64,000 bases of DNA from Telopea speciosissima (taxonomy: Eukaryota > Streptophyta > Magnoliopsida > Proteales > Proteaceae), in assembly GCF_018873765.1 (NCBI RefSeq), contig NC_057924.1, forward strand, positions 18,781,542-18,845,541. The letters are read 5' to 3'. Below are positions 3,291-64,000 of the stretch, piece after piece. Under the pieces are notes generated by a model. That model was not told where the DNA came from. It worked only from the letters and a program-made list of their open reading frames with translations, and did no database searches. The translations under genes and the position numbers were made by a program. Numbering within the stretch: position 1 is the stretch's first letter; each line of letters opens with the position of its first letter.

Positions 3291-3311
3291 TCCGTTCTTC
3301 AGAATAGCCTG

Positions 3312-5504: not shown

Positions 5505-5519
5505 AAAGGTGGAGTCATC

Positions 5520-14903: not shown

Positions 14904-14944
14904 TTATTTATATTCCAATATTTTTTTCTTAGTGATATAAATAT

Positions 14945-15113
14945 GGGAAGCAATTTTTGGTCCGGCAGTGTGGCCTACGTCAGCACTCCCATGTGTCTAT
15001 CTCTCTTCTCCTTGAAACAAAGGGGTAGAGGTGTTTTTTCAAATAAGGAGGAGAGAGATAGATTCATGGGAGTGCTGGCATAGGCCACACTCCCGGACAG
15101 AGAACTTTCTCCT
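14945..15113. mobile_element. 169-bp MITE, family M1, copy 2
   Basis: It is palindromic and 169 bp like copy 1, with a perfect 9-bp duplication TATAAATAT (14936-14944 and 15114-15122). The arms contain CGGCAGTGTGGCCTACG and its complement TAGGCCACACTCCCGG. Confidence 0.85.
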
Positions 15114-29380: not shown

Positions 29381-32300
29381 CTACGTTTTTAATGCAAGGA
29401 TTGTTGCGGCAGTGAACAGTGCTTCTTTTCCAAAAGGCAAAATCTCAATGTCCCTGCACAGAAGATGGATAAAATAAAAACGAGATAAAGAAAAACATTG
29501 ATCTGTACCAGTATGAGCTGACTAACACAAGGTTTTGCTTCTGATGTTCGCTTTCCCATTCGTTATACATTCATAAAGATGCTTCTCAAGTAATCACGAA
29601 AAAACAAAACAAAGCAGACTTAACCACTAAGCAGAGTACAAAAATTTATAATTATAGCTTAGAATTAATCGATATTTTGACAGTATCCTGAAAAAGTTAC
29701 TAACAAGGACGAATTCTCTTTCTTTTTTTTTTTCTTAAAGTAGAATGGATGAAGTGGAGAGGTGCATCAGGAGTTTTATGTGGCAAACACGTGCCTATTA
29801 AGCTTAAGGGGAAATTCTACAGGACAGTAATAAGACCAGCGATGATATATGGGGCGGAATGTTGGGCCACTAAGAAGAGTAATATAGATAAGATGAGTGT
29901 AGCGGAGATGAGGATGTTGAGGAGGATGTGTGGCAAGACCAGGAGGGGTAAAGTAAGGAATGATTATATTAGAACCGAATTGGGAGTTGCACCAATCCAA
30001 GACAAGCTCCGTGAGAGCCGCTTGAGGTGGCATGGTCATGTCCAACAAAGATCCATGGAGGCACCAGTAAGGAGGAGTGACCAGATTCAGTTTGATGGAG
30101 CCAAAAGAGGTAGGGGGCAGGCCTAAAATGACTATTGGAGAAGTGGTAAGAAAGGATATGCAGTTAGCAGGGCTCGACCCTAGTATGACTGCAGATAGAG
30201 TTGTTTGGAGGACAAGGACCCGTGTAGCCGACCCCTTATAGGGGGATGTTCCTGGGATGCTGCTTTGACTACTGCTCAGACTTTTTCCGTTAGTAACTTT
30301 ATTTTATCTTTTCACTTCCTTTTACTCTTTTTATTACTGTCACAACCTCTTAGGATCCATGTAGCCGACCCCATTTAGTTGGGATAAGGTTATGGTTGTC
30401 GTTGTTTGTAGTTGAGAAACCCCTTTTTTGGGACATGTTTATATCAGAGATTTCTTTACTTTTCTTTGTTGTTTTTCTTTCATCAGACCATAAATATAAC
30501 CTCTCTCCTTGAAATTTTACTCTTTTCAGATAGACTCAAAATCTTTCACCCCCATCCATTTTATTAATTTTCTTTCATCAAACCATAAATATAACCTCAT
30601 TTTTAAGTCTTTTATAGGTTAATTAAGTAACCACTTTGATTACTAGTTGGTTTAGGCTATTTCTAGTCATGTTAGGAGTGAAATTTTTAGTCTATATATA
30701 TTAATGTAACCAGAAATTAAGGCAAAAAATTTGATTTATAAAAGTTGGCTTTTGCCTCTATGTTCTGTGCGATTCAGAATAACTTCTTTGAGATGTAACA
30801 GGATCCCTTAGTGAGATGCTTAGGTAGGATTGGTGGGATTCCAATCTAGTTCCAGGGGAGAAGCGTTGTCCATATCATCTACTTTTCTTCCATTCTTCAT
30901 CTTGTTCATCATCAAATCAGGTTAGTATTTTCTGGTTTCAATTCTGTTCTTGTGCATACCCTACTTGCTGGAATTTCAATTTCTACATTGTTTCCATCCG
31001 AGATTTCAAATCGAACTTCAGATTTGGTAACCAGTTAGTATTCTAAACACACCCACGGTTTCAAAATCTGCTTTTCTTTGTTGATTTCTTAAGAGCCCTA
31101 CTTTAAGTTGGATTCTTAGTTCTAGTTGTTTTGGAGATCAGATTCTATTCTCTATTTCAGATTTATAGTCACTTATTAATTCTGACATCTGCTCATTGTT
31201 CTGCTCTTTTGCTGACTATCAAATTGGACCTTTAAGTTTCTGTCACAATTGTGGTGAAACCATAAACTATCGAATCCTATTTCCAAAAAGATTAATCCAT
31301 AATTCCAGATCTGACCATCAGATTTGGAAGATTATTCTAGATGAATAAAGTTACCCTTGACCAGAATTGCATTCCCACCTGAGTTGTTGATAGTTACTGG
31401 ATTTCTTTTAAGCCGGGTCTTTTCTCTTCACTGCAGTTCTGGTTTTCAACTGAATTTCTAAACCTAACACCTTAGGCTTCTAGAAACCCATCAATTACTT
31501 AACATAAACTTCTATACAAGAGGACGTGAGTACGGCTTCTCTTGTTTAGGAGTGAAAATTCTTCCAGATATGAAACATCAGATTTTATTTTTTTTGGGTG
31601 AATAAATAATTCATTACCAAAACCCCGGAACGGAGGGGGAAAAAAGGGGAAGGGGGGGGTGCTATACAAAACCTCAAGCCCTAGGAGGAAGGGGCAGGAG
31701 ACTGAAAAAGAGATACAGGTAAACCCCAGGAGACAACAATATGCCTGTTCCTTGGGGAATCGACAAGAGATGAAACATCAGATGTTAACTTGCCATAATC
31801 TAAATATGTTTCTTACAATTATGAAGCATGTCAACATGAAGATTTGTGAGCCATTATATACTAGAGTGGGCAAGACCATGCTTTCTTCGAAGTCATATAT
31901 GAACAGAAAAGAGAGACTGAAGATGGTATGAGTTCCAAAGGCCTCGAGCAATTTTAAGCTTGATATAAGTGGGTTAGGATATCAATCCGATTTGTATTGC
32001 CATCTTATGTTTTGGTGTGACAAATAGATCTTAGGATGAGTTAATGCAGTATCTAATTAGGACCAATATATGAAAGTTTGAAGATGGGATGTAGATACCA
32101 TGTCGAAGGTGAAGTTGCATTATGCCTTGGAAAGCAAAAAATTGTCATCTTTATCTGTGGCGCAGTTCTAGACTTCTAGTATGTCTCAGCATGTGGTAAT
32201 TGACTTCAAATACAAAATATTAATAAAGAAAAAAATGGAAAACAAAAAAACATTGTCATCCATAATTGTGATAAGATTTGCAGATTAAATCAATGATAGA

Positions 32301-35300
32301 ATATAGACTTCTTCTGAAAATTTTGGAAGGTCCTAACTTTCAAACAACAGTGAAGCATATTAGTGCAACTGCATTTTCCATAATCTATGATTTTTCTGTT
32401 GCCAAGTTCTCCTACTTTTTTACTTGAGATCAGACAAATCTCACAACTGGAATGGTTGTGCATGTTTCATCATCCTTGTAGCCAAGCAAATTTACTGTGA
32501 CATCATCCCTATCCTATAGGTGTGAATTCTTAATGTCCTAACATTCATGAGGTTACATTAGGAGTTAACAAGGTTGTAAACCGGAAATGATGGACCATAG
32601 AGATTCGGCTGGGGTCAGTCTGTCTCATTCATTGCAATATCTTCCTGGTTATTGCTAGCTATCAAGATTTAAGCTGGTGACGACAAGCAGGAGTCCTTAA
32701 AGGCTTAGGTAAATACCTTGCATGGAGTCGAGACAACTCCATAATAAAAACCATGTGCCCATGCACATGTGCTATCACCAAAGGGAATTGAGATGTTTGC
32801 AAGTTGGAATAAAAATGAAGAGTAGATCATAGATGTCCGGTACAACTTTCATATTTAGTCTTATGTATCTTTATTTCATGTCTACTTCAGGCAAACTTAG
32901 TACTACTAGTTCAATTCAACATGCAAAGCCCAATGACATGATGTTGTACACAATCTGTTATGTAGCCTTTCCACAAGGGAAAAAGGAAATAACTTCAAAA
33001 AACTCAAATTTGTCATGCAGATAAGTTCATAAAATAACAATATGAAGTTTTTGAAATTTTGGCAATCATCATATTCATGAAAAGTAAACAGGAAATGGAG
33101 GACTCATTTTAGCATAAAAAATTATCTATTGGTGTTACGTATTACGATAAAAGATTATATGCTTCCTACTCTGATCAATAGCATGTCTGAAATTACTTCC
33201 AAGGCAAGGTAGAAGTACAGAACACCTCTTGCTGCGCTTTTTCAATAGTAAAGATAAAACATGGTCCCATGTTTCAGTTACATGAATACAAATACATAGA
33301 CAGTTCTATAGAATTGAGACACTGAAAACGTATAATTTGTCATAACAATTTGCCATACAGAGAAAGCAAGGTAGAAGAAACCATCCAAAGCAAATATACA
33401 AAAGTAAAGAACAAATCATATCTTGAAACAACCCCACAACTTACCCATTAGTTGTTCGAATATTATGAAAAGCAGAAATCACATCTTTGCATATCTGCAC
33501 CAGAGAGACACTTCCAATGTCTCCACCAGAAGCAGCATTTTCTTTGACATGATGTTGTAGGGCCAAGTAAGCCTAAAAGGTAAAATAGCAAGAAATATGT
33601 TGGGCAATTTGTGAATAGGAGAATAGAAGTAACATCCCTAATGCCTCCACCAGAAGCAGCACTTTCTTCGGTATTATGTTCGAAAGATAAGTAGGCCTAA
33701 GAGGTAAAAATAACAAGAAAAGCATTGAACAATATGTAATTAAAAGAAAAGAGGTAAGATATAAAATGATTAACACCATATCAATCATCACTAAACAAGA
33801 TACAACAACAACTCAGCCGTATTCCAACTAAATGGGGTCGGATACATGGATCCATAGTTGTCACGGCGTCACGGCGATCCAAGTCGGTGGAGGGGTGTCA
33901 CGTCGATATATCGACATGTCGCCCGCCATGGCGTTGCCATGGCGAGCATGTCGACCATGTTTTATTTTTTATTTTCTCTATTTTTAATGTTTTAATAGTT
34001 GTATACTCAAGCCATGTTTTATTTTTTCTCTATTGTTTCTCAAGTTTTAAGAAAAAAATTCAGAAATCGAAGAGGGAAAGAAGAAATCGAAGAGGGAAGA
34101 AGAAATCGAAGACAGGAAGAAGAAATCAAAGAGGGACGCCATGGCGTAGGTCACCATGCAACCTTCTCCAGCGCCAGGACGCGACGCCATGACAACTATG
34201 CATGGATCCTTGCCCTCCAATCAGCTCTGTACCCTACGGTTCTCTTGCTCAGAAATTGTTACAATGTCTTTCCTCACCACTTCTCCTAAGGTCATCAGGT
34301 CTGCCCCTGTGTCTTTTAGTTCCTTCAATCTGAATCAAATCACTCCTCCGTACTAGGGCATCCAAAGGCCTCCGTTGACCATGGCCATGCTACCTCAAAC
34401 GACTTTCTTGTAGCTTATGTATTAGAGCTACTCCCAAATCAGCTCTAATATGATCATTCTTACTTTATCCTTTCTAGTTTTGCCATTCATCCATCTCAAC
34501 ATACTCATCTCCGCTACACTAAGTTTATCTATATGATGCTTCTGAACTACCCGACATTCTGCACCATACATCATAGCCGATTGTATGATTGCCCTATAAA
34601 AAGATACTGAAAAATAAATAACAATAGGTGTTTCCCATTATTTGGAATTTGTACCACTTGTTTTCAAGTCATAACATGGTTAGTGCATTCATGAGAAGAA
34701 AATTTTATAAAAATAAAAAATGAGGACATTTTTTTTTCAACTGCCATTTAGGAAACAGACAGATTGTTTTTAAAGAATAAAGGGTATCAGATGTCCATAA
34801 AAACATCATTTCCATGTTCCATTATTGATGTAGGCATCTTCTAATCATAAACAACACCAACATTCTTTCATAGGAAATGCAAAAAGCACAAAAGACCTAA
34901 TAAAAGAAACAAGAACCTAGGAAGACCAGGTTGTTTCTTCGTTGAGCCTGTCCGGCTAACGTTCATGTCCCTAAAGCCCTAAGGTAGCCATCTCTTTGGA
35001 AAGAAAAATATAAATAAGATGAAATCTGATGATCCATACTAGAGGAAGAGGTATCTGTACTAGAAGAATAGAATAAAAAAATCTTTACGATGTAGATTAG
35101 CAAATACAACAACAACAAACTCGGCCTTATCCCAACTTAATGGGGTCGGCTACATGGATCCAAACAAAACAAAGTAGGAAAAACAGAGTTCTAACTAAAA
35201 AGGGAAAGAAAAAAAATGGGAAAAGAGAGATGGGGAAAGAGATGAGACATGAAAAAGGAAAAGGACAAATGAAAGATGGGAAATAAATAAAAAAATGAAC

Positions 35301-38300
35301 GTTGAAAGATGAAAGATAGTAAGAGCAAAGAGGCATTGCCCAGCCCGTCAGGAGAATCTCAGCTAAATGGGGTCTGCGGCATGGATCCTTGCCCTCCAAT
35401 AGGCTCTGTCCGAGGTCATACTTGGAACAAGCCCTAGCCTATCCATGCCCTTCCTCACCACTTCACCTATGGTCATTTTAGGTCTGCCCCTAGCTTTTTA
35501 GCTCCTTCAATCGGAATCATATCACTCCTCCTTACTGGGGCGTCCCTAGGCCTCCATTGAATATGACCATACCACCTTAAACGCCTCTCTCGTAGTTTGT
35601 CATTGATCGGGGCTACCCCCAAGTCCAATCTAATATGTTCATTCCATACTTTGTCCGTCCTTGTTTTTCCACATCTCCATCTTAACATCCTCATTTCTGC
35701 TACACAAAGCTTATCAATATGGCACTTCTTAACTTCCCAACATTCTGCCCCATACATCATGGCCGGTCGAACAACAATCCCATAGAACTTTCCTTTAAGC
35801 TTTAGTGAAATATGTCGGTCACATAGCACTCTGGACGCACCTCTCCACTTCAACCATCCCACTTTAATTCTCTGTGAAACACCATCCTCTGTCACCTTCT
35901 TTATTTATGATAGACCCAAAATATCTAAAATAGTCACTTTGCGGTATCTCTCTTTCCTCAATTCGCACCATATCAGTATCCATCATATTGTGACTAAAAT
36001 TACACATTATATACTCCGTCTTCGTTCTACTAATCTTAAGGTCTCTTGTTTCCAAGGTTGCTCTCCATAGCTCTAACTTAGCATTAATCCCTTCTTTTGT
36101 CTCATCCACCAAAACAATATCATCGACGAAGAGCATACACCACGGGACCTCATCTTGAATGGTCTTGGTTAGTTCATCCATGATAAGCGCAAATAGATAA
36201 AGGCTTAAGGCGGATCCCTGATGCAACCCAATCGTAATTTGGAATTCCTTGCCCTGACCTCCCACAGATCTTACACTAGTCACTATGCCCTCATACATAT
36301 CTTTAATTACCTACACATATTTACTCGACACTCCTCTCTTCACCAGAGTATGCTGGATTAGATCTCTATGGACTCGGTCATAGGCTTTTTCCAAGTCAAT
36401 GAAGACCATATGGAGATCCTTCTTGCTATCTCTATACCTTTCCATGAGCCTCCTCAATAAGTAGATAGCTTCTGTTGTGGATCTACTTGGCATGAAGCCA
36501 AACTGGTTCACCGAGATGTGAGTCTCTCTTCTCAAACGTGCTTCAATAACCTTCTCCCAAAGTTTCATAGTGTGACTCATTAGCTTTATGCTTTTATAGT
36601 TATTACAGTTCTGGATATCACCTTTATTTTTGTAAATTAGAATTTGGAACTACAATGCTTCTTCTCCATTCATCTGGCCTCTTTGTGTTCATAATCCTGC
36701 AAACAACTTGGTTAGCTAATAAACCCCATAACCTCCAAGGGTTTTCCACACTTCTATTGGAATCTCATCTAAGCCTGGAGTCTTGCCAACTTTCATCTTT
36801 CTTAATGCTTCCTTAACTTCCACCACACTAACTTTTCTTACATAACTATGATGTGTGGTATCATGTTGAATAGAGTACTCATCCGGGTCATTTCTACTTG
36901 GCCCATCTCCATTAAGTAGGTTACAAATATACTCGCCCCATCTCTTCACAATGTCCTCATCCCTTACCAACACTCTTCCATCCTCACCCTTGATATACCT
37001 CACCTGATCGAAATCTCTACTCTTTCTCATCTTAGCTATCTTATATATAGCTTTTTCCCCTTCTTTTGTATTTAGGCTGATATAGAGATCCTCAAATTTC
37101 TTCGCCCTAGCCATTCCCACAATCTTCCTAGTTACGTTTCTGGCATCAAAATACCTCTTTTTATCCTCCATTTCTTTAGTCCTTTACCATGTCTTAAAAC
37201 AATCTTTCCTGGTTTTAATGGCTACTTGGACCTCATCATTCCACCACCACTTCTCCCTAGGGGCCTGATGATTACCTTTTGCTTCCCCTAGCACATCTTT
37301 GGCCACCCTCTTAATACAAGTCATCATCTTGTTCCACATCACATTTGTGTCTCCCTCCAAGTCCCACTTTCCTTGTTTTACTCCATTATCAGTAATTGTC
37401 TGACGGGACTCCCCTTTTAATCTCCACCACCTTATCTTAGGGTGCAAAGGTTCCCTCCTCCTACACTTTTGTGTACTGAGGCACAAATCCAAGACTATCA
37501 GTCTATGTTGGGTGGTGAGGCACTCCCCAGGGATAACCTTACAGTCTTTACACATCACTCTATCTGTCTTTCTAGTTAGGAAGAAATCTATTTGGCTGCG
37601 ATGATTCCCACTTTTATCGGTAACTAAGTACTCCTTTCTTTTTTCAAAGAAAGTGTTCATAATGGGAAGATCATAAGCTACCACAAAGTCTAGGATTGAG
37701 GTCCCCTCGTCGTTCCTCTCCCCAACCCCGAAACCGCCATGGACACCTTCATAACCTCTACGATCGCTCCCAACATGTTTGTTCATGTTAGCTCCAATAA
37801 TAATCGATTCATCTTGGCCAAAACTCTGCATTAAATCATCCATGAGCTCCCAAAATTGACGTTTACTACTTTCATCCAATCCAATTTGGGGAGCATAAGC
37901 GCAAACGATATTGACAATCTCTTTCTCCAACATCAATTTGATGGATATAATCCTATCTCCCATTCTTTTGACCTCCTCTACATCCTTCTTTAGATCTTTA
38001 TCCACTATTATACCCACTCCGTTCCTATTACTTTGATTTCAGAATCCCAAAGTTTGAAGTCATCCAACACCTTAGCTTTATTACCCTTCCATCTAGTCTC
38101 TTGGATACAAGCAATATTAATCCATCTCCTCATAACATCTACCAACTCCAGGCTCTTACCAATTAAGGATCCAATGTTCCAAGAAGCTAATCTTATCTTA
38201 CGTTTTTGGGCTGGCAAATGTCCTCTCACTTGCCCTTGCGAAATTATCATTGCATCCGGACGTCGACACAGCGCGTCGCATGCGAGGGACGCCCTAGTCA

Positions 38301-41300
38301 AAAAGGACGAAAAGACATAATAACAAGAAAAAGAGATCAGAAAACAGCAGGATCCATGCAAAAGGTGATTGGCTGAATAGAGTACAGTGCCGGCTGCCTA
38401 CCTGACGCACCACAATATGAAAATATATAAAAGTAGATATTAGGAATAAACAAAAAGAGTAGAAGAGAAAGGACATCTAGTGCAATAAAAGATACTCACA
38501 CATCTAGAAAAGGTGCATAGTCAAACAAAGCAAAAGGAGAGGACACACCTAGAGCTTTAAAAGACACGCTCAAAATGACGCAAATTAGCAAATAAATCCT
38601 ACACAAAACATCTTCTTGGGCACTTAATTCCAAGGTTCAAGATTTTGGTAGAAATGACCGAAATTTCACGAGGGAGAGAAAAAAAAGTTTTCGGGAAGTC
38701 TCAAAACGAAATCCCAGTCGGCTCAATAGAAATAAAATTTTCAATCAAAATTTCGGTATTGTTACACAATACGGCCGAAACAATACAAACCAATCTTATA
38801 AATCAAAAAGTCGACTGACATGGGTCGAAATTTCGACCTATTTCATTTATTTTGTGTGTTTCGACCATATGGGGGAGAAAAAAAAAAAAAAAAAAGGCCA
38901 GAGAACCACAAATTCTGTGATTTTGCCAAGTCACCTAAATTTCTCATTGGAACAGGGTGTTGAAGACTACAACAACGCTTCTACATTGACGATTTGCCAG
39001 ATTTGTGCAAGAGTCCAATATGGAGGTATACCCTTTTCCTTGAAATTAAGTTTTGCAAAAGGATAGGATAAATATTTAGTGGTTGACCTTCAATTTTTTA
39101 CATGTTAGACAGCTTAGGCAGATATATGACTTCACAGAATCGGAATTAATTTTCTGTTTTTAAATTATTTTTGAAATTTTCTGGTTAAAAATATTGATTT
39201 TCTTGAAAAAAAATTTTGAAAACAAAAAATAGGGTTAATTAAATTGGTTGGGGCTTAATTTTTTATATGTTAAACACCATTGGCCAGTCTACGACTTTAT
39301 GGAGTCACTTTTATTTTCTGCCCAAAAAATTCAATTTTTAAATATTCATATTTAAGAGAAAATAAATAAATAAATCCATAAAATTTAAGAAAAATAATTG
39401 AAAAATGAAAATTTACTAAAAGGTTGTATAATGGCTGCCATGGAAGAAGAACTCGGTCAAAACTACAGGTTTCGACCGAGTTGTCTTGGTTTCGCAACCT
39501 ACCGAGATGAGATAAGGGTCGAATATATATTCAACCAGGTTTCGATCAGTTTCGAAGGGTTTTGACACTATTTCGGTAATTACACAAGTTTCGACCTGGA
39601 CAACTATATAAATTCACTTATCCCCATCGACCTGAACACCAATTATCAGCTTCCAAAGCACTATTTTTGGAAGGATTTTGACTAGTTGGAGATTGCAATC
39701 AAGGGAGCATCTAGCCAAGCCGAATTATGGAATCTCCCTTCCCCCTTTAATTTGGTTTTTATGTTTAGTATGTCTTTTGTACCAAGGAACCTACCTTAGT
39801 AAAGGTTACCTTGTTTAAGTTTATTTTCTTCATAAATTCTCATTTACGTTTTTAAAGTTTAATCTCAGCCGTAGGGTAATAGCAATTAGGGCTTGAGATT
39901 AGGATTTTGCTTTTCTATTTAAATGTAATTGGAGCAGACCTAAAAAAGGACTACAAGCCAAGATCGATTCTGCTTTTGAGGTTAAAGAAAAAGGGCTAAG
40001 GATGAAGGTTTTCTGGACAGAAAAGGGGCTGCAAATGAAATGAGGGATGCAGGGGCAGATTAGGGATAGCTTGAATGACTTACTTGAAAATGGTCTACTG
40101 TAATGGCTGATGGATGCTTGAGGATGAAGATGATAAATAAGAAAAGATAAAATAGACAACTAGAGTCCCACTAGTGTCCCACCATAGGAGTCCCACCTAG
40201 GCTACTTGATAAACTCACTAGCAAAGTTCTCATAAGAGAGGAGACTAAGTCTTTTGTGAATAATTCTGGAATGCCAAAGTAGCCTTCCATGATTTGAATT
40301 TATAGGGGAGGAAGAAGTTCCAAAAACCCCTTAGATACATGTAAGCAATTAATGGACTGTTGGTATTCCCAACCTATTACATAGAAAACATTCCCCCCAT
40401 GCATCTAGGAACAATAAACAAGAACAAAGGAACTAGAAATAAGAAAACAATAAATCTGCCTAGGAATATAAAAAGACACTTAAGTACTTAACTACCTAGA
40501 TATATGAAAGACTCTTAAATAAACCTAGGAAATATGAAAATAAGCACTACTAAGCCTAATCCCGTATGCCTTCTTTGTACCCACATTTTAGGCCCATTAA
40601 AGTTGCCCATTACAAAGAAAACACAAAGAATCAAAGGCCCAATGCATACATAACCCCACTAAAGGCTTATTCCAATAAAATAAGCCCATTATGTGACTTA
40701 ACTACATCAATTCTCCCCCTGCTTGAAAAAAACTCGATATGTCCAAGTAGCACAAGAAAAATCATCAACAAATGAAACAAAGTAACGATAACCAAATAAA
40801 GAGGTAGTAGGGGAAGGACCCCAAACATCTGTATGCACAATGTGAAAAGGAGAAGTGGATCTATTACCATGATATGGATACGGTGAACTACAGTGTTTGG
40901 CAAACATACATGGTTCACGTTGAAAAACATGAGAAGAGGCAATAAAAGAAACTAAGTGAGCTAATTGTTTCCTCATTACAACAAAAGATGGATGGCCAAG
41001 ACGACGATGCCATAACATAATAGAATCCACAGAACTACTATCATTACGTCCACACAAATAGGACCGAGCTGTGGGCAAAAAAGGTTCAAAAAGATAAAGG
41101 CCTTACTCCTCACGACCACTGCCAATAATCCTCTTCGTCACCAAATCCTGAAACAAAAAATGAGAAGGAAAAAAAAGTGACATAACAATTCAGAGATTTA
41201 GTCAAATGTCTCACAGAAAGAAGATTAAGGGTAAGGTTAGGGATATGAAGAACTGAAGTAAGAGAGATAGATGATGTAACAGGGATACTGCCCTTACCAG

Positions 41301-44300
41301 AGATGGAGGAAAGGGAGACATCAGCCACCCGAACCTTATCCTTACCAAAACAAATGGTATAGAAATCATAATAATGGGACGTACCAGTCATGTGGTCAGT
41401 GGCACCAGAGTCAATGACCCAAGACTGGGCTGCAGTAGAAGCTGAGGTGGAGACCTGCAAAGCTGATGATGAAGAAGAACTAGCCACTGAGGGTGTAGAG
41501 GATGTGCTCAACTGTGACATGACCCTACGAAACATTGCATCTGCCAGAGTGGAGTCATCCTAGGTAACATCTGCCTCAGTCATAACAAAGTGCGTTCCTC
41601 GAGCTCCCCCTCTACGGCCACCACGAGCACTACTTCGTGTACCAGGAGGACGGCCATGAAGAGTCTAATACCTATCCTTGGTATGTCCAGATCTCCCACA
41701 ATGATCACATTTAAACCTGTCTCTGCTACCTCCACTAGTACTACTGATCTCAACTGCTCTGTCTTCCCCAAGGTTAGGTCCCTGGCCTCTATTACCTCCA
41801 CAGGTGTCCCGGAAAGAACTAGAATTGAGGGATGACTTCTCAAGAGAAGATGCTGGAGCTGATTCCATAGCAACACGCCGAGTCTCCTCACTCTGTAAGT
41901 AACTACAAACCTCATCAAGAGATGGAAGAGGGGACCGGCCTAAAATCTAGAGCCTGATTGGTTCATAATCAGGGTTCAAACCACCAAGTAAAGTGAAGAC
42001 ACGCTCCTTTTCAAGAGTACGATACACCTTTACTTCATCCTCTGGATTTCTCAATTGAAGATCTTTGTACTGATCATACTCCTCTAAGAGATTGATATAA
42101 GCATTGTAGTACTCAGAAATGGTCCTGTCACCTTGCTTCATTGAATTAATTTTTTGGTGGAGCTGATAGACCTTGGCGGAGTCACCTACCCTGTCAAATA
42201 TCTAGGAGACACTGTCCCAAATTGCCTTGGCAGTTTCTTTTCTCATAAACCTTCTCCCAATCTCAGGCTTCATGGAAAAGATTAACCATGTCATAACTGT
42301 GGAATTTTCTGTCTCTCATTTCTCATAAGTAGGAGAACCAGCCTCTGGGGCTTTAATAGCGCCAGTAATATGTCCAAGTTTCCCTTTACTCCTAAGAGAT
42401 AATTTCATAGAATGTGACCAGTCCAAGAAATTGGTGTTATCAAGCTTCACAATGGAGATCTGAGGATGAGAGTTCTCATAAACAAATTGAGGGGCTGTTG
42501 GAGTGGGCTGTGAATCAGTCGAACCAAGCCCAGAAGTCTCTGAATCAACCATCTTGTAGGGAAAATAGCACTTGACCATATACTAGAATACCAATCCAAG
42601 TGGGGAGTACACACTCAACCCAAAAAGGAACCAAATACAAGAAAAGAACAGAAACAGCCTTGGGAATACTTCACTCTAATACTCTCCAAGGGGTAACATC
42701 AACCTTAAACAAGTTCAAAAGCTTCACAAAAGCAGTGCACAAGCATTACTCAACAAAGGAGGCAGCATATTGCAGTCCAAATGCAATAAAAAAGGTAATC
42801 AGACATTCTCGGCTTTACCTGGGCAGAAAATAGGATTCCATGAAAAAGAGTTGTGCTCAGATTGAGCCCTCAAGCAGCAAGAGGGAGCACATGGCCCTTA
42901 AACAACACCCTTGGGCGATTCTAGTGACCCATTCCAATCCGCAAGCCCATGCCGAGAGAGAGAGAGATAAAGGGACTGCACTGTAGAGCTGGCGGTAACT
43001 CTAGCAGTGGCTAGAAGACCTTCAAATCATCAATAGAGCTTCATCCAAGCTCAAACAGCAGTAGCAAACACTAGAATAGGTTTTTTCAAACCTATTTCAT
43101 AGTTCTTTCAACAGATTCTTTACATAGGAAGCTTCTCCTTGAAATCCTTTATGCCCTAGGATTTCAAAGAGAAGAAAAAATGGGGATAAGAAGCTGGATT
43201 CGACTCTCAAACCCTAAAGCTTTGATACCAAGTTGGATTCTAGGTTAAGAAAGTAAGTAGGAGAGGAGGAAGAAGATGAGAAAGGAGGAAGAATGAGACA
43301 AGAGAGAAGAGAAGAGAATAATTTTGGTTGAGTGACTTGTGTTGGAGAGAGACCTCCACACATCTATATTACTTCAATAATATTAAGGAAAGTATTAAAT
43401 CCACCTCCCTAGGGCGGTAAAAAGTAAAAAAGGATAAAGAAAGGGAAAATACATAATAAGGCAACTAGACATAAGACTAGTTCCTAAACTACCCTTATAA
43501 CATAACTTCTAACAGAAAGAGGGCTAAGGATGAAGGTTTTCTGGATAGAAAAGGATAGCTTGAATGACTTACTTGCATATGGTCTGCTGTAATGGCTGAT
43601 GGATGCTTGAGGATGAAGATGATAAATAAGAAAAGATAAAATAGACAACTAGAGTCCCACTAGTGTCTCACCATAGGAGTCCTACCTAGGCTACTTGATA
43701 AACTCACAAGCACAGTTCTCATAAGAGAGGAGGCTAAGTCTTTTTTTGAATAATTTTGGAATGCCAAAGTAGCCTTCCATGATTTGAATTTATAGGGGAG
43801 GAAGAAGTTCCAAAAACCCCTTAGATACATGTAAGCAATTAATGGACTGTTGGTATTCCCAACCTATTACACAGAAAATATCCCCCCATGCATCTAGGAA
43901 CAAGAAACAAGAACCTAGGAACTAGAAACAAGAAAACAACAAATCTGCCTAGGAATATAAAAAGACACTTAAGTACTTAACTACCTAGATATATGAAAAG
44001 ACTCTTAAATAAACCTAGGAAATATGAAACTAAGCACTACTAAGCCTAATCCCGTATGCCTTCTTTGTACCCACATTTAGGGCCCATTACAGTAGCTCAT
44101 TACAAAGAAAACACATAGAATCAAAGGCCCAATGCATACATAACCCCACCAAAGGCTTATTTCCAATAAAATAAGCCCATTATGTGACTTATCTGCATCA
44201 GTAATGCTTCCAATAAAAAGATGGAGTAGATTGAATGTTGAAGTTAGACTCAATTGAATTTTTGAAATCACATAGAGTTTCACTAAAGTCTAGAAGAATT

Positions 44301-47300
44301 GTAGCTTTTCTCCTTTGCATTTCCTTTCTCTCTTGTGTTCATGTTACTCGATTACACACCTGGTAGAGTGTGTTCTCGACTCTTCCGATCCGTAGCTCCC
44401 AATAAGGCTATGTTATTTGGTATCAGAGCTGGCTGGAGAACTGCCATGGCACCCAAGCGTAGAGGCGGCCATACAGCTCAAGTTGAAATGAGCACACCCG
44501 CCCTCTGTCATTCTTGGAAGAGTATGATAGTTGGTGTCCACGTTTCCGAGGACTGTGTTAGTTAATTAATCAAGAACTAGGGTTTTTCCTATTTTTTTCA
44601 GCTTTCTGGCCCATGAGCTCAAGCAAGAATTTCAATCACATTTTCCCCGGCTTGGGATGAGCATAATCAAAATTCAGCATATGTTGTGCCCAGCCCAAAC
44701 AATATACAAACTTGGAAAGGGAAGATGCCCCTCTTGAGATCTTGTACTTGAGTAACATTTTACCAATTCAGACAAGAACTTGACGAAGTTGCTCCATAAG
44801 GAAAGTTGAGGAGTCATGCCAAGAAAACAACGAGAGCATCAATCAACTTCTACCCATAATGTCTTAGGGGAAAGGTAATTACAAAGTGTCAATAAAGCAA
44901 GGAACGCACAGCAGCTTTCTACCTTAGCTATACCTCAGATATAGAATATCTTATTCACCCTAAAACTAGGACATTCACAGGCCTAATTATCCAGATAAAC
45001 CAATTAAATTTCATTGTTCTAGATCCACATCGTTACTGATTTTAAGACCACAAAACAACTAAATGCATTTCATTCAGGCTTTCTATTAAAAAAAATGTCA
45101 CTGACCATCTCACAATCAATGCAAATCACCTGAAAACCATGCGCTAGAAGCAGTTGGCATTCATCCAGGCTGATCTTCTTGATAATGCTCTTTGTGCTTT
45201 TGCCATTTGAAAAGCATCTCAAGATACCATGAAATGTATCATCATCTGAGGAAACATTTGACCTCCGAGTGCGAGTAGCAGGCTGCTGGATAGAAGATAA
45301 GGAAAGAATAAATGAAGATGCACTGCAACAACATAGGTCTAGCATGAAGACTTGGGAATAAATAAGGAAGAAATAGGAACTAATCTTGGGTTTATTCAAT
45401 ATCAATAAAGGTACAATAAGCAAGCTCGACCCTGTTTGTTGCTTTGTTGGTGGAGTCCCAAACCACCTGATTGAGGATAATCCACTTTTTTTTTATAGAT
45501 CCAGTTATTTCATCTATTCAATCGATCTTTTTCCCATCCATCTATCTTAGAGACTGTGGATAGTCACTTTGTGCAAAAAATGCTGAAGGTTATGACCAAC
45601 CCAAGTCCACCCTCCCAGCCCTTGCAAAAGTGGTACTTCCACCGGATTATGGTCCTTTTTTCTTTTTATAATCCTTTCCTAACTCAAGGATATTAGGGCT
45701 GAAAATATAGGTCCAAGGGCCACCTAAAAGGCAAGTCTTCAAGCCAAACAACTACTTTGGCTAGGCTTGGATGAGTTTGGCCCACTTAGCTGGCCCTTTT
45801 GAGTAGAATATTGGAGACCAAAGATAAGAGATTCTTTTAAATTTTGAGTTTTTTCACATTTAATTTGATTTAAGACAATTTTTAAATATTAGATATATAG
45901 AAATTTTGGTCAAGTTCAATTACAGTAGTTTTGTCTCAAATTTTTTTTTTTAAAGACATGGAACTGTCGGAGTGTCTAAATGGAAATACTTCCCTATGAT
46001 AATAGAACGGTATGACTCATTTATATAATTATAAAGTTGACCAACCTTTGTAATATACTTCCGGAAATACTGCAAAATTATTTCCATTTTCCATTTAGGA
46101 TCAGAAAATACCTACAAAACAAAGAATCCTCAAAGCTGATATAAGAAGAAGTTTGGAGTAAAGAACCACATATTCAAAAAGGATGCGAACGCTCACATTC
46201 ACAAAGAAAGTTAAAGAATAGTAAAGATATTTCATTCAAGTTAAAAGCTGAGATCAACTCAAACCGTCACTTGGGTCCTTAACATTATAGAAATGGTAGA
46301 GATTGGACTTTAACCATAGTAATGATAAAGAACCCTCAACTTTAACATAATCTGTGTAGGATTGAGCCACAATTATGATTAGATTGTGTAAGCCTCTGAG
46401 GTTAGCAATATCCCTCAAAAATGTTTTACATGATGGCTGAAATGACAAAGAAACTAAAGTAAAATTTATTCTACCCTTATCCAAATGCTTTTTTATTATC
46501 TTCATTTTCTCTTTTAGAATTTCTAGTTCTTTATTACAGCAATAGTTTTCCATTTTGAAATATTTAAAGGGTCATGTTGCAGGGAGAAATTAGCTCACAA
46601 GGTTCTTTTCCAGAACCTGGGCCAAATGCTGGTCCAAAGGCCAGCACCAGCCCAAGCTGCAGGCAGGTCCTTGCTGTCCCAACCTGGCCCTGCTGAGTTT
46701 ATTTTATATAGTTCTTTTTGGGTCCACTTGGGTCCATTATTTTGGAACAGCTGCTGGAGAAGACTTTTTGTATTCTTGGTTTGTCTTTTCATGTTCCTAG
46801 GTTAATTAATGTAGTGGGTTTTACTTTTCTAGGTAGTATTAATTAGTCTTTTAGTTTTCCTAGCTTAGTAGTTACTATATCTTGTTTGTAGTTCCTATGT
46901 CTTGGGAACAGCTTTCTAGGTCTTGGGGATAGTTTCAATGTCTAGGAATTGTTCTCTATGTATGGGGAATTCCAAAGGGGTCTTGGAATTCTAAGAGTCT
47001 CTTAATGTTATTGTGTAGTACTCAAGATTTTCATCTCTATATAATGCAAGTCCTGGCTGCTCTCAAAGGCAACCCATAATTTTGAAAACAAAAAGTCTTC
47101 TTGTGAGAAACCTTGTGAGAAACAAGAGCTGTGAGACTCAGCTACCCAGGTGGGACTCCAGCTCTACAATCTAGCTATCTATTTTCATACCTACCTATTC
47201 TCTTCCAGATTCGATCTTGGCTTGCTTACCCTCTCGGATTTGCATCAGACCATGTGGCATGCCTAACAAAGTTTAACTAGTTTAGATCACATGATCATGT

Positions 47301-50300
47301 AAGTTATCACAAGCAGTCTTCAAACAAGTCAACTAAGACTAATTTATTTATCTGCAACTGTCTCTTACAACTAAGAGATAACCTCTAGATATTAAAATGA
47401 AGAATTGAATGCAATAGGCAGGATAATCATACTATCATAGTATAGAAAGTTATAGCACTAAAAGAAGTTATATGATATCAGATATGGATTATTTCAACTT
47501 CAGGAAAAAAAAATGACAAACCAACCATAATATGGCTAAAATACATTCACCCTAAAATTTTAATTAATAAACTGTAAACCATTCCGATCCCATCCCATGA
47601 CATCTGTATATTCTATAAGAAAGGCCATAATGGAGCTAAACAACTGATATCATCATTTACAACATAAAATACCACAACTTGAGTAGAAGTTGCAAGCAAT
47701 ATATTGGTCTGTAGAGAATAAAGATATCAAGTCCTCAAGTCAAAACTATTATGCCCTTAAGGTTGCCATTTTGAAATAGGAGTGGAACGTAATGGTGTGA
47801 ATCTCTAGGAGATTGAAATTGTAACTCTGACATAGATGTTGAATCTTCTCAGAACTGGATTGGTTTTGTTCAATCAAACATAACGTCCCAATCTACTCCC
47901 AATCATTGATGCCACCAAAGTTAAAGAATTGCTAATCTTTAACAGAACTAACAAACCTAACTTCAATAGTTTCATGTGTAAATAAAATTAATATAAGCTA
48001 AATAGGATTACAAAACTATACCCAACCAGACATGTAATGTAACATGAGGACCATTTCTAGAACTATTCACCTGACAGAAACGAAGGTGAAAATAACCCTT
48101 GTGCACGTATAACTATGGGAATGCAATTGCAAATAGTTATATCTGTATACACAGATTTCAGATTAAAAAGTAGCAAAATACTTCAATTTGCCTTGGATAG
48201 CATGATGTACACAGAGCAAAATTAAATTTGAAGAGGAAACCATAAAAAATTAGCTGAACATTGAAAAGGAGGAAAAATAATATGATGTACACCAAAGGTT
48301 CAGATATTACTTCAATTAAAGGAGGGCAACAGATAATTACCGAGAAAAATTGCAAGAGTAAATCTTCATCATAAGTAAGTTCGTCCAGAATTATTTCTAC
48401 AAGTGGGGTTCTGCATGGCCCTCAAAAAAGAAGTGATACTTAACTAATTAGTTGATTACAATATGAGTAAATGCATTTTTAAAAGATTAATGTACCTCAC
48501 ACCATCAGCTCTGGAAGTATCACCACGCACATCTGCTTGTTTCTTTGACATATCAAGCTCCATAATCTAGAAAGGTGCAAAATAAAGTTGTCATTCTAGT
48601 GGAAAGAGTTCCATAGATTCCTTAAAGAAGAAGGACCCTCAATAAACTTTACCAGCACCAAAAATTTCTGCAGAGCAATACAAGTTCCTTTTTCTAGTTC
48701 AACCAAAGCAAATGCCAGAGAAGTATTATGTTCGTTAGCAATTGTTGTCGGAGACTTTTCAGTATGTTCCAGTTCATGAGTGCTACATTTAGCGTGCGAG
48801 TGGAATCCTTTAGATATGATAGACAAGCAATCCTTTATTAAATTTTTGTAGCTTATCCTTCTTGAACCCTGCAAACACCATCATGGCCATACAAAATTAT
48901 GATCCAAAAAAAGCTGGGAACAGAAACAACTAAATTGCAGTCAATAGATGGATGGTTGACACATCACAGTACTTAAGTGGAACTCTCGATGATAAAACAA
49001 AAATGAGGCTTATCATTATACCAGAAGCATGTTGAGCAAGGACTCCCTGAGAAGGACCCAGTTCATGGTTTCTGTGATTCACCAAAGAAAACTGCTTTAG
49101 TCTAGCTAATCATTTACCCGTAAGTATTTTTTTTCATTTTTTTTTCCAGGGATAGGGGGATAAGGGACAATATAATTAAATCTGAACCATCGCACCTTTA
49201 TATACAGTATTACGAGGTAAGAAATCCCCTTCAAGAACACTGACCAGATATTGGAACAACAACACATTGCCCATGGGCTGCAAGAAGAAGATGAAAAAAG
49301 CATGCCAAAGAGATTGATTTAGTAAACCAAGATAGCACAAAATCCTTAGAGATAATGCTCTTTTCCATTAGGACCATGAAGGGTCCCCCGTCACACACAC
49401 ACAAACAAAGACCATCATCATCTCCCCGCCCCCCCTTCACACATAAAAAATACAAGCCATATAAAAATTTCTCGGAAAATATAGTTTTATCAAGGCCATC
49501 AAGTACATCTAATAAATTTCTGATAACAAAATTTGTAACGAAATCTAACCTTCGGGTCTGACACTTGAAAACTCATCCCATCAGCCAGTTGTTTAATGCC
49601 TTGTACCAGAACAAGAAACCGCTGAAAATGACAGTCTAAATTTTAATGAAATTACAGGTTAAAGTTACAATATTTAAAGCTACAAAGATTAACCCCCAGA
49701 GAAATGAAATAAGTACATATATACATCAATGAAATCTACAGGGGGTCAGGGGGAAAGGAAAGGCAACATGATCTCGAGCGGGTAATTTATTTACTACTAA
49801 TTCTCAGAATGACACAATTCCAGCCCATAATAAATGAATTAATTGCATGGTTATGTTTATCAACATGAAACATGAGCATAGGATGAGGCATTGAAAAAGT
49901 AATATTCATACATCAGTCAAATTTACATTTCTGTCGCATGATTTAACAGTCTCTGAATGCTCATTGCAGACAATACAAGTCACACACTTGGGTGAAAGGT
50001 TGGCAGTACCTATAGATAAGTATAGTTGACTAGCTTTCGGTTTTACCTACTTCATTAGTTCATTCTAATTTTCCTTTGAAGATTTTTTAAATTGAATTTT
50101 TGGGAAAAAAAACAGCTAATATGGGGCTCTGGATGTCTACTTCACTCACAGAACTCAACTCACTAGCTCTGTTCCAACTAAATGGACAAGGTCACATGGC
50201 TATTCAAGCTATCTGAAAAGGCCCGTTTTTATCAAAAGGAAGATGGCTTATTCTGCTTCTTCCTTAAATTCCATTTCCAACTTTAAAACAGCTTCAAGCC

Positions 50301-51900
50301 TTTGGGCATGTGTTGAACACACATACATAAAGAGGAAATGTACTACAAGTGACAAAAAGAGTGTGGACCCATCACTGTCAACATTTGATACCAACCCCTA
50401 ATTAAAGAGAATGCAAATATCTTTTCGACGTCAGCTAGTAATCATCTAGGCATGTCCATAATTTGACCAAGGAGGCCCAAACAACTGGACATCAGGTTCA
50501 TGCTTTGACAGCCTTAGACAAAATCCTTTCCAAAGAACCCCTCAGACCAACGCACGCCAAGTTCTTAATTAATCATGTTCATCAGTTTGTTTTAGTTATC
50601 CAAGGGGAAAAAATGACAGCTCATAAGTCGTAACTACTGCAAAAGACAGAGAATAGTAAAATTCAACTCACATAGGAATCCATTGGTTCATCCAGGTTCT
50701 TGTCAGTCACTTCCCTCCCACTGTAGGAACTTTCCAGACCAAGAACGAATGGTGACCAAGCCTAGCATGCAACAAAGTGGAAGTATAACAAGTCACATTT
50801 AAGTAAGAAAAATATGCAAAATTATCCTTGGAAAGCTAAGGAATAATTTACTAGCAGAAATGCCAGAACAAAGTCAGGATAAAGAAAACAACAGGAGTGA
50901 TACCTCTTTAACTTCAAAAAGTTCCAATGGTGCACTATCGGATGACTCAGATTTATCCACATGGGACAAGTAGACCCGAGGAAAGCGCTTCATCAACAAA
51001 AAGAGGAAATGACTGTTAGACACATCTGATCTTGTTAGCTTCAGATGCTGTCAAATAAGATTGTGGGCAATTAATTACCTTGTCTAACTCACACAAGAGC
51101 TGGTAACTAGCCACAGCCAGTTCGAGGGACCTTCGATCCCTCAAGATCTGAAAAACTGCCTCAAACATTTTGCTATTTCACCAGATTTGGTTAAAACATT
51201 ATCAGTAAATGAGTATAGAAAGCAGTCATCATCGAATTAGGTATCATAAAGTAATGAAAAGAAGAGAAAAAAAATGAATTATGAACAAGTAAATCAGTAA
51301 AAAAAGCAAAGGAAGACGGAGTAATACACTTAGGTAGGTTGTGGGGTGGGGAGAAAGAAAAATCCTCGGTTGATCATTTTTGGTACATGGAAGCGAATAA
51401 TATCATTCCCCTCCAAACAAAAAAAGGAATGAACTCAATAACAACAATATAATTGCCAGCAGGCTTCGATGGATTGATCTAAGAAAGCTAATTTCTATCA
51501 AAAGAAACAGCAATTAAATTTTTAAACAACCCCACAACCAGAGAATCAAGATCAATAATAAAAATTAGAACTTCACTCCCCCCCCCCCCCCCGCCCCCAT
51601 TTTTTGAGCAGAGAAAGAGAAGGTAGACTGAATACCAGGAGGGAGCAGTTATATTTTCTGCAACGATTGACGAAGCACGGAGTGCTTCAAGGAAAGTTAA
51701 TCCTGCGTTCTCATTAGGGTAAAGTGAAGCATAAGAATAACAATGAGGATCAGTACCAAAAAAAAAAAACTAGTAAGAATAAGACGAGAGTGAACAGTAC
51801 TGTCGTCGTCATAATCTCGAGCGTCGGTCAATCCAGAAGCGTCGAGGATCGCCAAGATGTTGTCTTCGACTATTCTGTTGGTCGGTCCACGTTTCTCCAT
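29381..51900 (-). CDS. SNI1: SNI1 orthologue, 15 exons over 22.5 kb
   Basis: SNI1 is a leucine-rich nuclear protein, a negative regulator of systemic acquired resistance and a partner of the SMC5/6 complex. Exons (minus): 51900-51801, 51702-51636, 51172-51079, 50987-50904, 50761-50672, 49621-49550, 49277-49196, 49071-49022, 48868-48653, 48566-48496, 48410-48341, 46111-46046, 45282-45130, 33572-33445, 29453-29381. Every intron is GT-AG and all phases join, giving 471 aa and a TAG stop. Recognised SNI1 segments include KMFEAVFQILRD, SYQLLCELDK, AWSPFVLGLE, LLFQYLVSVLEGDFLPR, NWVLLRESLLNMLLGS, SDPKWKMEIILQYF, TRTRRSN, CFSNGKSTKSIIKKI and ILPFGKEALFTAATIL. Introns 13 (11.6 kb) and 14 (4.0 kb) are filled with LINEs and a chimeric retroelement. 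An in-frame ATG at 51984 would add 28 residues. Whether such long introns splice efficiently is unknown. Confidence 0.88.
29740..30412 (+). mobile_element. RTE LINE, 5'-truncated, antisense in SNI1 intron 14
   Basis: The plus-strand frame (29749-30126) has the RTE reverse-transcriptase C-terminus: RPAMIYGAECWATKK, RMLRRMCGKTR, LGVAPIQDKLRE and RWHGHVQQR. The tail runs to about 30412 through GGATCCATGTAGCCGACCCC and ends in GTTG-type repeats, as in this family. No target duplication was found. Confidence 0.85.
30413..33444. other. SNI1 intron 14, remaining sequence
   Basis: No gene. At 31577-31620 the sequence TTTTTTTTGGGTGAATAAATAATTC looks like the reverse complement of an L1-type 3' end, continuing to about 31790. 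The rest is AT-rich and unassigned. Confidence 0.4.
33632..33745 (-). pseudogene. Tandem partial duplicate of SNI1 exon 14
   Basis: The minus-strand sequence from about 33697 repeats the start of exon 14 with changes: AYLSFEHNTEESAASGG compared with AYLALQHHVKENAASGG. It keeps an acceptor-like CTCTTAG just before it, and similarity extends into the flanking intron, so exon and intron were duplicated together about 120 bp apart. After about 20 codons the copy diverges and has no donor at the matching place. It is judged a decayed duplicate, with a small chance of use as an alternative exon. Confidence 0.75.
33804..34600 (-). mobile_element. RTE LINE, 5'-truncated, carrying a hAT MITE (SNI1 intron 13)
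   Basis: The minus-strand RTE tail starts at 33804 (ACAACAACAACTC on plus), flanked by AAGATAC on both sides (33797-33803 and 34601-34607). The right part encodes degenerate RTE sequence similar to 35473-35895. A 348-bp hAT MITE interrupts it. Confidence 0.8.
33853..34200. mobile_element. hAT-type MITE inside the RTE
   Basis: Inverted ends CATAGTTGTCACGGCGTC and GACGCCATGACAACTATG enclose 348 bp. The 8-bp duplication CATGGATC (33845-33852 and 34201-34208) is the hAT length. The interior has further GCCATGGCG palindromes and GAAGAAATCGAAG repeats, and no transposase. Confidence 0.88.
34601..35095. other. SNI1 intron 13 sequence between two RTE insertions
   Basis: AT-rich, no gene and no recognised repeat. 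Confidence 0.4.
35107..38583 (-). mobile_element. Full-length RTE LINE (SNI1 intron 13)
   Basis: A 3,477-bp element on the minus strand is flanked by the perfect 11-bp duplication ATTAGCAAATA (35096-35106 and 38584-38594). The single RTE reading region runs from an endonuclease start (RLASWNIGSLIGKSLELVD, about 38240) through QIDFFLTRK, then RT motifs KVGKTPGLDEIP, FIDLEKAYDRVH, GLHQGSALS and FVDDIVLVDE, to the C-terminal RPAMMYGAECW. At least five frame breaks or stops divide it (near 38010, 37178, 36600-36715, 36305 and 35880), so it is dead. It has the same orientation as SNI1. Confidence 0.93.
38595..39924. other. SNI1 intron 13, unassigned repeat-like sequence
   Basis: Words such as TTTCGACC, TTTCGGT and CGAAATTTC recur in both orientations between about 38650 and 39600, suggesting an old foldback element. 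Its boundaries were not found. An A run lies at 38879-38895. Confidence 0.35.
39930..40709 (-). repeat. 3' LTR of element B
   Basis: 780 bp, starting TGGAGCAGACC and ending CTACATCA on the plus strand. It is complete, and includes about 55 bp (39930-39984) and about 37 bp near 40026-40063 that are missing from the other LTR. Confidence 0.85.
40740..43230 (-). pseudogene. Copia A2 internal region: gag, protease, partial integrase
   Basis: On the minus strand: gag in pieces (42579-42316, 42141-41947, 41868-41665, with zinc knuckle CDHCGRSGHTKDRY, where the last cysteine is lost), protease (41535-41110, WVIDSGATDHMT) and the start of integrase (41078-40740, WHRRLGHPSF, HTDVWGPSP, FVSFVDDFS). 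It stops within integrase at about 40740, where it joins B's polypurine tract. Reverse transcriptase, RNase H and the A2 3' LTR are missing. A2 is closely related to copia A1 at 1971-7576. Confidence 0.88.
43219..43230 (-). other. Primer binding site of copia A2
   Basis: The minus strand reads TGGTATCAAAGC, the initiator tRNA-Met site with one change, directly beside the A2 LTR. Confidence 0.75.
43231..43514 (-). repeat. 5' LTR of copia A2
   Basis: 284 bp, in element orientation starting TGTTAGAAGTTATG, homologous to the LTRs of copia A1 and retaining the CCTAGGG block deleted from A1's 5' LTR. Confidence 0.85.
43515..44200 (-). repeat. 5' LTR of element B, truncated
   Basis: It matches 39985-40709 with few changes and about 37 bp missing near 43560. 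Its inner end is cut where copia A2 inserted. Confidence 0.85.
44206..45129. other. SNI1 intron 13, right part
   Basis: No gene. The frame reading through exon 13 into 45070-45129 is intronic. The plus-strand frame at 44335-44565 contains GTATCAGAGCTGG-like LTR or primer-site words, perhaps an LTR remnant (about 44220-44460). Confidence 0.35.
45282..45287 (-). promoter_or_regulatory. SNI1: NAGNAG tandem splice acceptor, SNI1 exon 13
   Basis: The minus strand reads CAGCAG directly before CCTGCT. Use of the first AG would add one glutamine to the protein; use of the second gives the exon start chosen here. Confidence 0.6.
46575..47246 (+). repeat. Candidate solo LTR in SNI1 intron 11
   Basis: The segment starts TGTTGCAGGG and ends TTTGCATCA. 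It contains a TATATAATG box at about 47038, followed by a short leader with CTTGTGAGAAACC repeats, like the promoter and R region of an LTR. No convincing target duplication was found (CATGT at 46573-46577 and 47251-47255 is offset), so boundaries are provisional. Confidence 0.4.
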
Positions 51901-52050: not shown

Positions 52051-52051
52051 T

Positions 52052-52123
52052 TCCGTTGCCGGGACTTGAACCCGGGTCTCTCGGGTGAGAGCCGAGTATC
52101 CTAACCAACTAGACTACAACGGA
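52052..52123 (-). tRNA. tRNA-Glu (anticodon CTC)
   Basis: The 72-nt minus-strand sequence begins TCCGTTGTAGTCTAGTTGG, has the anticodon arm CTCGG-CTCTCAC-CCGAG with anticodon CTC, T arm GGGTTCAAGTCCC, and ends CAACGGA, pairing with the 5' end. No intron, and CCA is not encoded. It lies 151 bp upstream of the SNI1 start codon on the same strand. Confidence 0.97.
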
Positions 52124-54989: not shown

Positions 54990-55159
54990 AAGATAGAAAA
55001 AAAGAACTCGGGAGTGTGATCAATGCCAGCACTCCCATGAGTCTATCTCTCTCCTTTCCATACGAAAAGACACCTATGCCTCCTTGTTTTGAGGAGGAGA
55101 GAGATAGATAGATGGAAGTACTGATGTTTGTCACATCCTGAACAGAAAAACTACTTCCC
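54990..55159. mobile_element. MITE, family M1, copy 3
   Basis: It shares GCCAGCACTCCCATGAGTC and GGAGGAGAGAGATAGA with copies 1 and 2 and is about 170 bp long. The arms are more diverged and the duplication is not readable. Confidence 0.7.
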
Positions 55160-56155
55160 AAATTAAAAGATAATAGGCTAGGAAGACATCTTTAGCAGAG
55201 ACTCCTACCAAGCTATATGAAATCAAAAGAATTGCCATCACATGTGTGTGTTAGTGTCATTGGGTCAATATGATTTTTTTTTTTTTTTTTTTGTTGGTAG
55301 AAGGTCAATATGATTTATGGATCCTAAGAGATTTCAACTTATGGGAACCAATCACATAATAAGCCTCACATGTGTCATGTGTGCCTTTGCCATGTAGTCA
55401 TGATCCATCATCTACTCAAACTAATCCCACAAAAAAAAAAAAAAAAAAAAATCCGAAGAAAGAAGCTTTTATGGGTTTCATCCGTCAAACACCAAAAGGA
55501 AAGAAGCATCAACCTCATGGTTTTACATTCAAACTTTCTTATCACCTTTCTCCAAGTTTCAAAGCACGTGAAGTCATGTTTTAATTTATCAACAAAATAA
55601 AAGTTTAGATATTGAAAAAAGTGTTTTCCTCTACCTATGAAGGACGATTCACCCATCATCCTAGGATTCGTAAAATCTTATTGGGTTTTCATGTGTCCCA
55701 AAATATTCTCCCGACACTCTTTCGCGTTTTCTCCTACCCCGCGGTGAATGGGATCCTCATTCACCGTGGATGGAGGAAAACTTAGTCCTAAGATTTTTAT
55801 ATTTTTCGAGAAGTGGGCTCTCGACATGCTCTCAATTGGAAGTAAAATAACATGAGTCAAAAAAATGACAATTCAAATAAGATTGAAGATTTATATATAG
55901 GTGGATCCAAGTTCTCTGTTCACTTGTCAAATTTCAATCTTGTCTGAATTTTGTTAGAAGTGGCAAACAAGATATTGAAGAAAAAATGAAAGACTATAAC
56001 TAGATGCATGGACATACAAATATAAATTCTGCAATTTTATGGCCAAAAATATAGGGTGTGATGGTCTACTTCCGGTGAAAGCAATTTATAATCTTTTCTT
56101 CCCTTTCTTCCTTCATGGGAAATCCTAATTACACCAGGTGGGGGAGGGGAGGGTC
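55160..56155. other. Intergenic, nothing recognised
   Basis: It has T and A runs (55274-55292, 55432-55450). No gene. Confidence 0.4.
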
Positions 56156-60358: not shown

Positions 60359-60678
60359 ATTTTTACAACACAAACTAAATAAATAAAAATCACACGATCA
60401 CCTAATTAAAAGCCAACGGTACAATTGTAATTTATTTTAAAATTAAGTGTATATTGCAAGTTGCAATTACATCAGTCCACACAACCCTCCAAACAAAGAA
60501 AGGTTAATTAGCCTTTTCCTTTCCCTTAGTTGTTCGTCTCACTCTCACCTAATTCGTTTTTCTTCAGTAAAATTATGAGCCCCACACACCTTAGGGCTTT
60601 GCCTGCCCCGAAATTTCCAATCCCACAGTCGATGATCCATACAAATAGAGCCTCTCGCCCACAAACTCTCCCATCTTC
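60359..60678 (+). promoter_or_regulatory. Upstream region of the ERF gene
   Basis: 320 bp between the hAT-like element and the ATG. It contains CATACAAATAGAG at 60637-60649, which could serve as a weak TATA-like site. No strong element was identified. Confidence 0.3.
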
Positions 60679-63897: not shown

Positions 63898-64000
63898 TCA
63901 CCCACACTTGGGCGCCACCCACTAGGGAGTCACCCACACTTGGGCGCCACCCACTAGGGCATCACCCACACTTGGGCGTCATCCCCCTTGGGCCAATGTT
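63898..64000. repeat. 32-bp tandem repeat array, cut by the window end
   Basis: Units start at 63898, 63930 and 63962: TCACCCACACTTGGGCGCCA then CCCACTAGGG plus two bases. The third unit is diverged. There are no spacers between units. Confidence 0.85.

Follow-up and report, generated by a model that had tools for sequence, protein, structure and literature searches.

The 64,000-nt stretch of the Telopea speciosissima genome analysed here, hereafter the window, contains on its minus strand a complete gene of 15 exons that we take to be SNI1 (Table 1). Scripted joining of the exon edges, from 51900 down to 29381, yields 1,416 nt including the stop, that is, 471 codons followed by a stop, with one frame open and the other two stop-rich. 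The introns are of the GT-AG type at all 14 positions, no exon carries a stop or a frameshift, and the complete ORF, which begins with the ATG at 51900 and closes in exon 15, encodes a protein of 471 aa. While 11 of the 14 introns span 85 to 1,050 nt and intron 11 measures 2,229 nt, introns 13 and 14 extend over 11,557 and 3,991 nt, together making up 69% of the 22,520-nt span of the gene, and the far exons 14 and 15 encode the last 66 residues. A first-pass annotation of the same DNA had proposed this architecture, with introns of 11.6 and 4.0 kb after exons 13 and 14, and the rebuilt frame agrees with it exactly: the end of exon 13 and the edges of both distal exons are the same, the peptides it had read are present, and the phases match across both gaps (0 entering exon 14 and 2 leaving it).

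Table 1. Features of the SNI1 locus; positions refer to the window, except in the first row, where they refer to the contig
Feature	Position	Strand	Basis or remark
Window	C9:18781542-18845541		822,943,500-bp genome, 63,990,770-bp contig
SNI1 exon 1, coding part	51801..51900	-	ATG at 51900
SNI1 exon 2	51702-51636	-	GT-AG, open frame
SNI1 exon 3	51172-51079	-	GT-AG, open frame
SNI1 exon 4	50987-50904	-	GT-AG, open frame
SNI1 exon 5	50761-50672	-	GT-AG, open frame
SNI1 exon 6	49621-49550	-	GT-AG, open frame
SNI1 exon 7	49277-49196	-	GT-AG, open frame
SNI1 exon 8	49071-49022	-	GT-AG, open frame
SNI1 exon 9	48868-48653	-	GT-AG, open frame
SNI1 exon 10	48566-48496	-	GT-AG, open frame
SNI1 exon 11	48410-48341	-	GT-AG, open frame
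SNI1 exon 12	46111-46046	-	GT-AG, open frame
SNI1 exon 13	45282-45130	-	GT-AG, open frame
SNI1 intron 13	33573..45129	-	11,557 nt
Copia-type composite element, intron 13	40064..44200	-, same sense as SNI1	direct repeats and Pfam remnants
LINE with two RVT_1 pieces, intron 13	35102..38269, upstream limit by eye	-, same sense as SNI1	Pfam
Second LINE 3′ piece, intron 13	34201..34620	-	76% identical to part of the first LINE (34200-34579 vs 35379-35765)
348-bp hAT-like, non-autonomous element	33853..34200		terminal inverted repeats with 12/13 bases matching, 8-bp target duplication
Upstream copy of 124-nt tandem duplication	33640..33763	-	own acceptor opening at 33696
Downstream copy of 124-nt tandem duplication	33516..33639	-	holds in-frame exon-14 acceptor
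SNI1 exon 14	33445..33572	-	open frame and match to SNI1 C-terminus
SNI1 intron 14	29454..33444	-	3,991 nt
LINE 3′ piece, intron 14	29735-30416	antisense to SNI1	sequence comparison
SNI1 exon 15, TAG stop inside	29381..29453	-	open frame, tblastn, candidate ranking

Around the gene, the window holds several further features. A tRNA-Glu (CTC) gene at 52051-52123 (minus strand) shares its strand with SNI1 and precedes the start codon by some 150 bp, which places it within the likely SNI1 promoter or 5′ UTR; the Rfam search returned nothing beyond this tRNA. Also upstream of SNI1, on the opposite strand, an open frame at 60649-61299 (plus strand) encodes an AP2 domain (ERF-type transcription factor), and another at 14051-14653 (plus strand) encodes a peroxidase domain (Pfam E 1.8e-45); for the stretch just before the latter (13818-13961), a partial copy with 91% identity is present at 10607-10750, which is 3.2 kb upstream. 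Three members of a family of short elements (11825-12011, 14935-15112 and 55009-55165) are 75 to 87% identical, two of them with internal inverted repeats, and a tandem array at 63887-63978 consists of 2.9 copies of a 32-bp unit with 93% matches.

SNI1 is an NSE6-like subunit of the SMC5/6 complex. As the comparison protein, we used a provisional sequence of Arabidopsis SNI1 (At4g18470) with 431 aa. This reference aligns with residues 11 to 470 of the 471-residue model at 47% identity (217 of 463 columns, E 6e-129), which we treat as a lead to the identity of the gene, and in a tblastn search of the whole window it matches 10 of the 15 exons at E <0.001. With the spliced protein as the query, a PDB search gave no match at E up to 10 and a Pfam search gave nothing above threshold; the DYW deaminase and HTH_16 matches were both sub-threshold and taken as chance. 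Relatives were sought among genome contigs (11 pattern matches) and viral contigs (3 pattern matches), and none was confirmed. A review names an ARM-repeat-like helical fold as well as ASAP1 and SMC5/6 binding for SNI1, and its subunit labels are inconsistent, SNI1 being NSE6 in the text and in Table 2 and standing beside NSE5 in Table 1 (PMC5793187). Loss of SNI1 in Arabidopsis is described there as producing small plants with reduced fertility (PMC5793187) and elsewhere as causing EDS1-dependent autoimmunity (PMC5834200). The authors of the latter report view SNI1 itself as no direct regulator of acquired resistance or DNA damage (PMC5834200), and the label ‘immune gene’ may thus overstate its role.

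To examine the assignment of exons 14 and 15, splice sites were scored on the basis of the 12 SNI1 introns that precede exon 13, under fixed score limits. Among the 88 internal-exon candidates following exon 13 (30 to 400 nt, phase 0, between 45.1 and 15 kb), exon 14 ranked first against the C-terminus of the SNI1 reference with a score of 43; the runner-up, at 37, was exon 14 again in a shortened version, no unrelated candidate scored above 26, and none of 20,000 shuffles of the exon 14 residues attained its score. For the terminal exon, 509 candidates were compared, and exon 15 occupied the top two places, at 78 with a 5′ extension starting at 29517 and at 74 as modelled here; when the two exons were scored jointly, 0 of 2,000 shuffles scored as high. 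In tblastn with the reference protein, exon 15 was found at E 2.7e-4 (whole window), and exon 14 alone at E 3.7, above the limit of 0.001. The base usage of the two exons follows that of exons 1-13 in the frame of the model only (0.137 versus -0.077 and -0.241 bits per codon); a score at least as high occurs in 204 of the 30,568 windows drawn from these introns and, among the stop-free ones, in 110 of 1,688, and as a sole argument for the two exons base usage is weak and constitutes no proof. By the scores trained on 12 sites, the acceptor of exon 15 is weak to middling (rank 169 of 1,394 AGs) and the donor of exon 14 middling (rank 158 of 1,224).

The two long introns differ in their content of mobile DNA. 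With element limits set by hand, 8,135 of the 11,557 nt of intron 13 (about 70%) and 682 of the 3,991 nt of intron 14 (17%) are recognisable as mobile, and the real share could be larger. The earlier description of both introns as transposon-filled is apt for intron 13, with little of intron 14 recognisable as such. The elements recognised in the gene sit within introns bounded by canonical splice sites. The Copia-type element of intron 13 carries direct repeats at 44200-43553 and at 40709-40064, which we interpret as LTRs and which are identical at 618 of 645 aligned sites (K2P 0.043), and between these putative LTRs lie gag, Pol_BBD and GAG-pre-integrase remnants. Its interior resembles a fuller Copia at about 1966-7577 and includes a copy of that element's end repeat, which is why the intronic element looks composite. 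The fuller element, on the minus strand, carries gag, integrase (just below the Pfam cut-off) and RVT_2 pieces spread over several frames, and its own end repeats, one of them with a deletion of about 57 nt, are identical at 230 of 238 aligned sites (K2P 0.034).

The remaining mobile DNA of intron 13 consists of the first LINE, with RVT_1 pieces at Pfam E 2.6e-13 and 3.8e-12, the second LINE end, and the 348-bp element inserted in the 3′ tail of the latter. We tentatively take the first LINE to be RTE-like; three other frames within it had no Pfam match. The 348-bp element is the sole feature combining terminal inverted repeats with a target duplication in a scan of 29300-51900. A Pfam check of 20 of the 107 open frames of at least 80 residues returned matches for six of ten and five of ten frames; the LINE piece of intron 14 and five other frames had no match, and no transposase was found among the 20. 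Of the RTE, hAT and LTR insertions that the first-pass annotation had listed, the LTR element and the LINE are thus borne out, and hAT holds weakly, on one 348-bp element.

The acceptor of exon 14 lies in a tandem duplication, a new observation absent from the first-pass annotation and the most concrete splicing hazard at the locus. The 124-nt unit covers the end of intron 13 together with the first 57 nt of exon 14, and its two adjacent copies share 75% identity (E 2e-15), with 91 matches across 123 aligned sites and a K2P of 0.33. The upstream acceptor, which is transcribed first, scores 6.6 against 7.6 for the in-frame one. Since 124 nt do not make up a whole number of codons, splicing to the upstream acceptor would lose the frame, the predicted product having 77 added residues out of the SNI1 frame and then a stop; read-through of exon 13 with retention of intron 13 is predicted to add 19 residues before a stop. 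Judged by divergence, the duplication is much older than the Copia-type insertion. The copies differ at 13 of 57 exonic and 22 of 66 intronic sites, a small sample for which no significance was computed, and these differences lean towards constraint on the downstream exon. We considered whether the upstream acceptor opens an additional, mutually exclusive exon and rejected this, as no convincing donor was seen by eye in the upstream copy, whose exon part runs into the region of the second acceptor.

We favour the reading, at a probability of about 0.86, that the locus is an intact 15-exon SNI1 with transposon-grown late introns, spliced in the ordinary manner through the downstream acceptor to give the 471-aa protein. 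The late introns, intron 13 above all, would have grown as mobile DNA landed in them, namely a Copia-type LTR element, a LINE and a small TIR element; transcription would proceed through all 22.5 kb of the gene, and intron 13 would be removed by ordinary splicing to the downstream of the two tandem acceptors, the outcome being full-length SNI1. We infer that mRNA is produced, that splicing favours the downstream acceptor and that the elements are passengers with no part in regulation. With every exon intact, the far exons are likely to be maintained in use by selection. The locus offers a full model of a DNA-repair subunit linked to immunity, the last 66 residues of which might be overlooked where introns longer than 10 kb are disallowed.

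The strongest alternative, which we consider unlikely, is that intron 13 causes a considerable fraction of SNI1 transcripts to fail, either by polyadenylation in the sense-oriented LTR element or elsewhere in the intron or by use of the upstream acceptor; the resulting proteins would lack the last 66 residues, and intron 13 would govern the dose of SNI1. Both the Copia-type element and the LINE of intron 13 share the orientation of the gene, read-through and the upstream acceptor would lead to the extensions predicted above, and looser poly(A)-like hexamers number five in the opening 1,000 nt of intron 13 compared with three in the 1,000 nt past the stop. In addition, the Copia insertion of Arabidopsis RPP7 and the methylated intron of IBM1 are reported to act on expression (PMC7529245, PMC11265718). 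However, AATAAA occurs twice in the 1,000 nt past the stop and not at all in the opening 1,000 nt of intron 13, the part of the intron that the scan covered, and many rice loci with heterochromatic introns are reported to be transcribed (PMC7145194). The first-pass annotation had raised efficient splicing and premature polyadenylation as a regulatory question; this is a fair question, though one that arises for any plant gene with such introns, and the sequence bears no sign of it here. Partial failure of transcription or splicing would cost SNI1 its last 66 residues, and in view of the size, fertility and autoimmunity phenotypes of SNI1 loss in Arabidopsis, such failure would matter. With an old duplication of its acceptor next to a transposon-rich intron, exon 14 presents a testable splicing hazard. 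A more elaborate version, in which the duplicated acceptor would work as a dose switch, strikes us as improbable: the spliceosome would meet the upstream copy first and produce an out-of-frame transcript, and the amount of functional SNI1 in this lineage would depend on which copy is chosen and on read-through of the 11.6-kb intron in a silenced state.

Far less plausible is a decaying or redundant locus, where another copy does the work and transposon insertion destroys this one. The growth of the introns would fit such decay, but all exons are open and all junctions canonical. Moreover, a search of the 823 Mb genome at the DNA level, which is blind to diverged copies, placed a 321-nt stretch with exon 14 at a single site, the window itself, and SMC5/6 subunits are described as mostly single copy in plants (PMC5793187). 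Least credible of all is a gene with its end elsewhere, exons 14 and 15 matching SNI1 by chance: the SNI1 reference is provisional and exon 14 alone is not significant in tblastn, but exon 14 leads its candidates and is unmatched by its shuffles, and the last exon stops within one residue of the end of the reference protein.

Among known systems, Arabidopsis SNI1, by the provisional reference, shares with the present gene 47% identity over nearly the whole protein and a C-terminal end that agrees within one residue, but has 431 aa rather than 471, and the gene described here has two long introns, one of them mostly mobile DNA. Long transposon-bearing introns are ordinary in plants, and the SNI1 case fits a known gene structure; since this structure is common, the general lesson is small. 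Plant MSH1 is likewise a genome-maintenance gene whose introns have grown with their transposon content, yet those introns can be far larger than the ones of SNI1, the survey giving lengths of up to 101,025 bp, 359 introns longer than 5 kb and, in Nelumbo, an MSH1 exceeding 50 kb (PMC10487979). In rice, 4,227 of 37,866 gene models are reported to have heterochromatic introns (PMC7145194). These genes are similar to SNI1 in holding long transposon-bearing introns, but the rice introns are described as biased towards the promoter, with an average position of 3.02, in contrast to introns 13 and 14 of 14 here (PMC7145194). Finally, Arabidopsis RPP7 with COPIA-R7 and IBM1 with its intron 7 provide examples of a Copia or methylated intron in an immune or chromatin gene; for these an effect on expression is reported (PMC7529245, PMC11265718), in contrast to the elements in SNI1, which are probably passengers.
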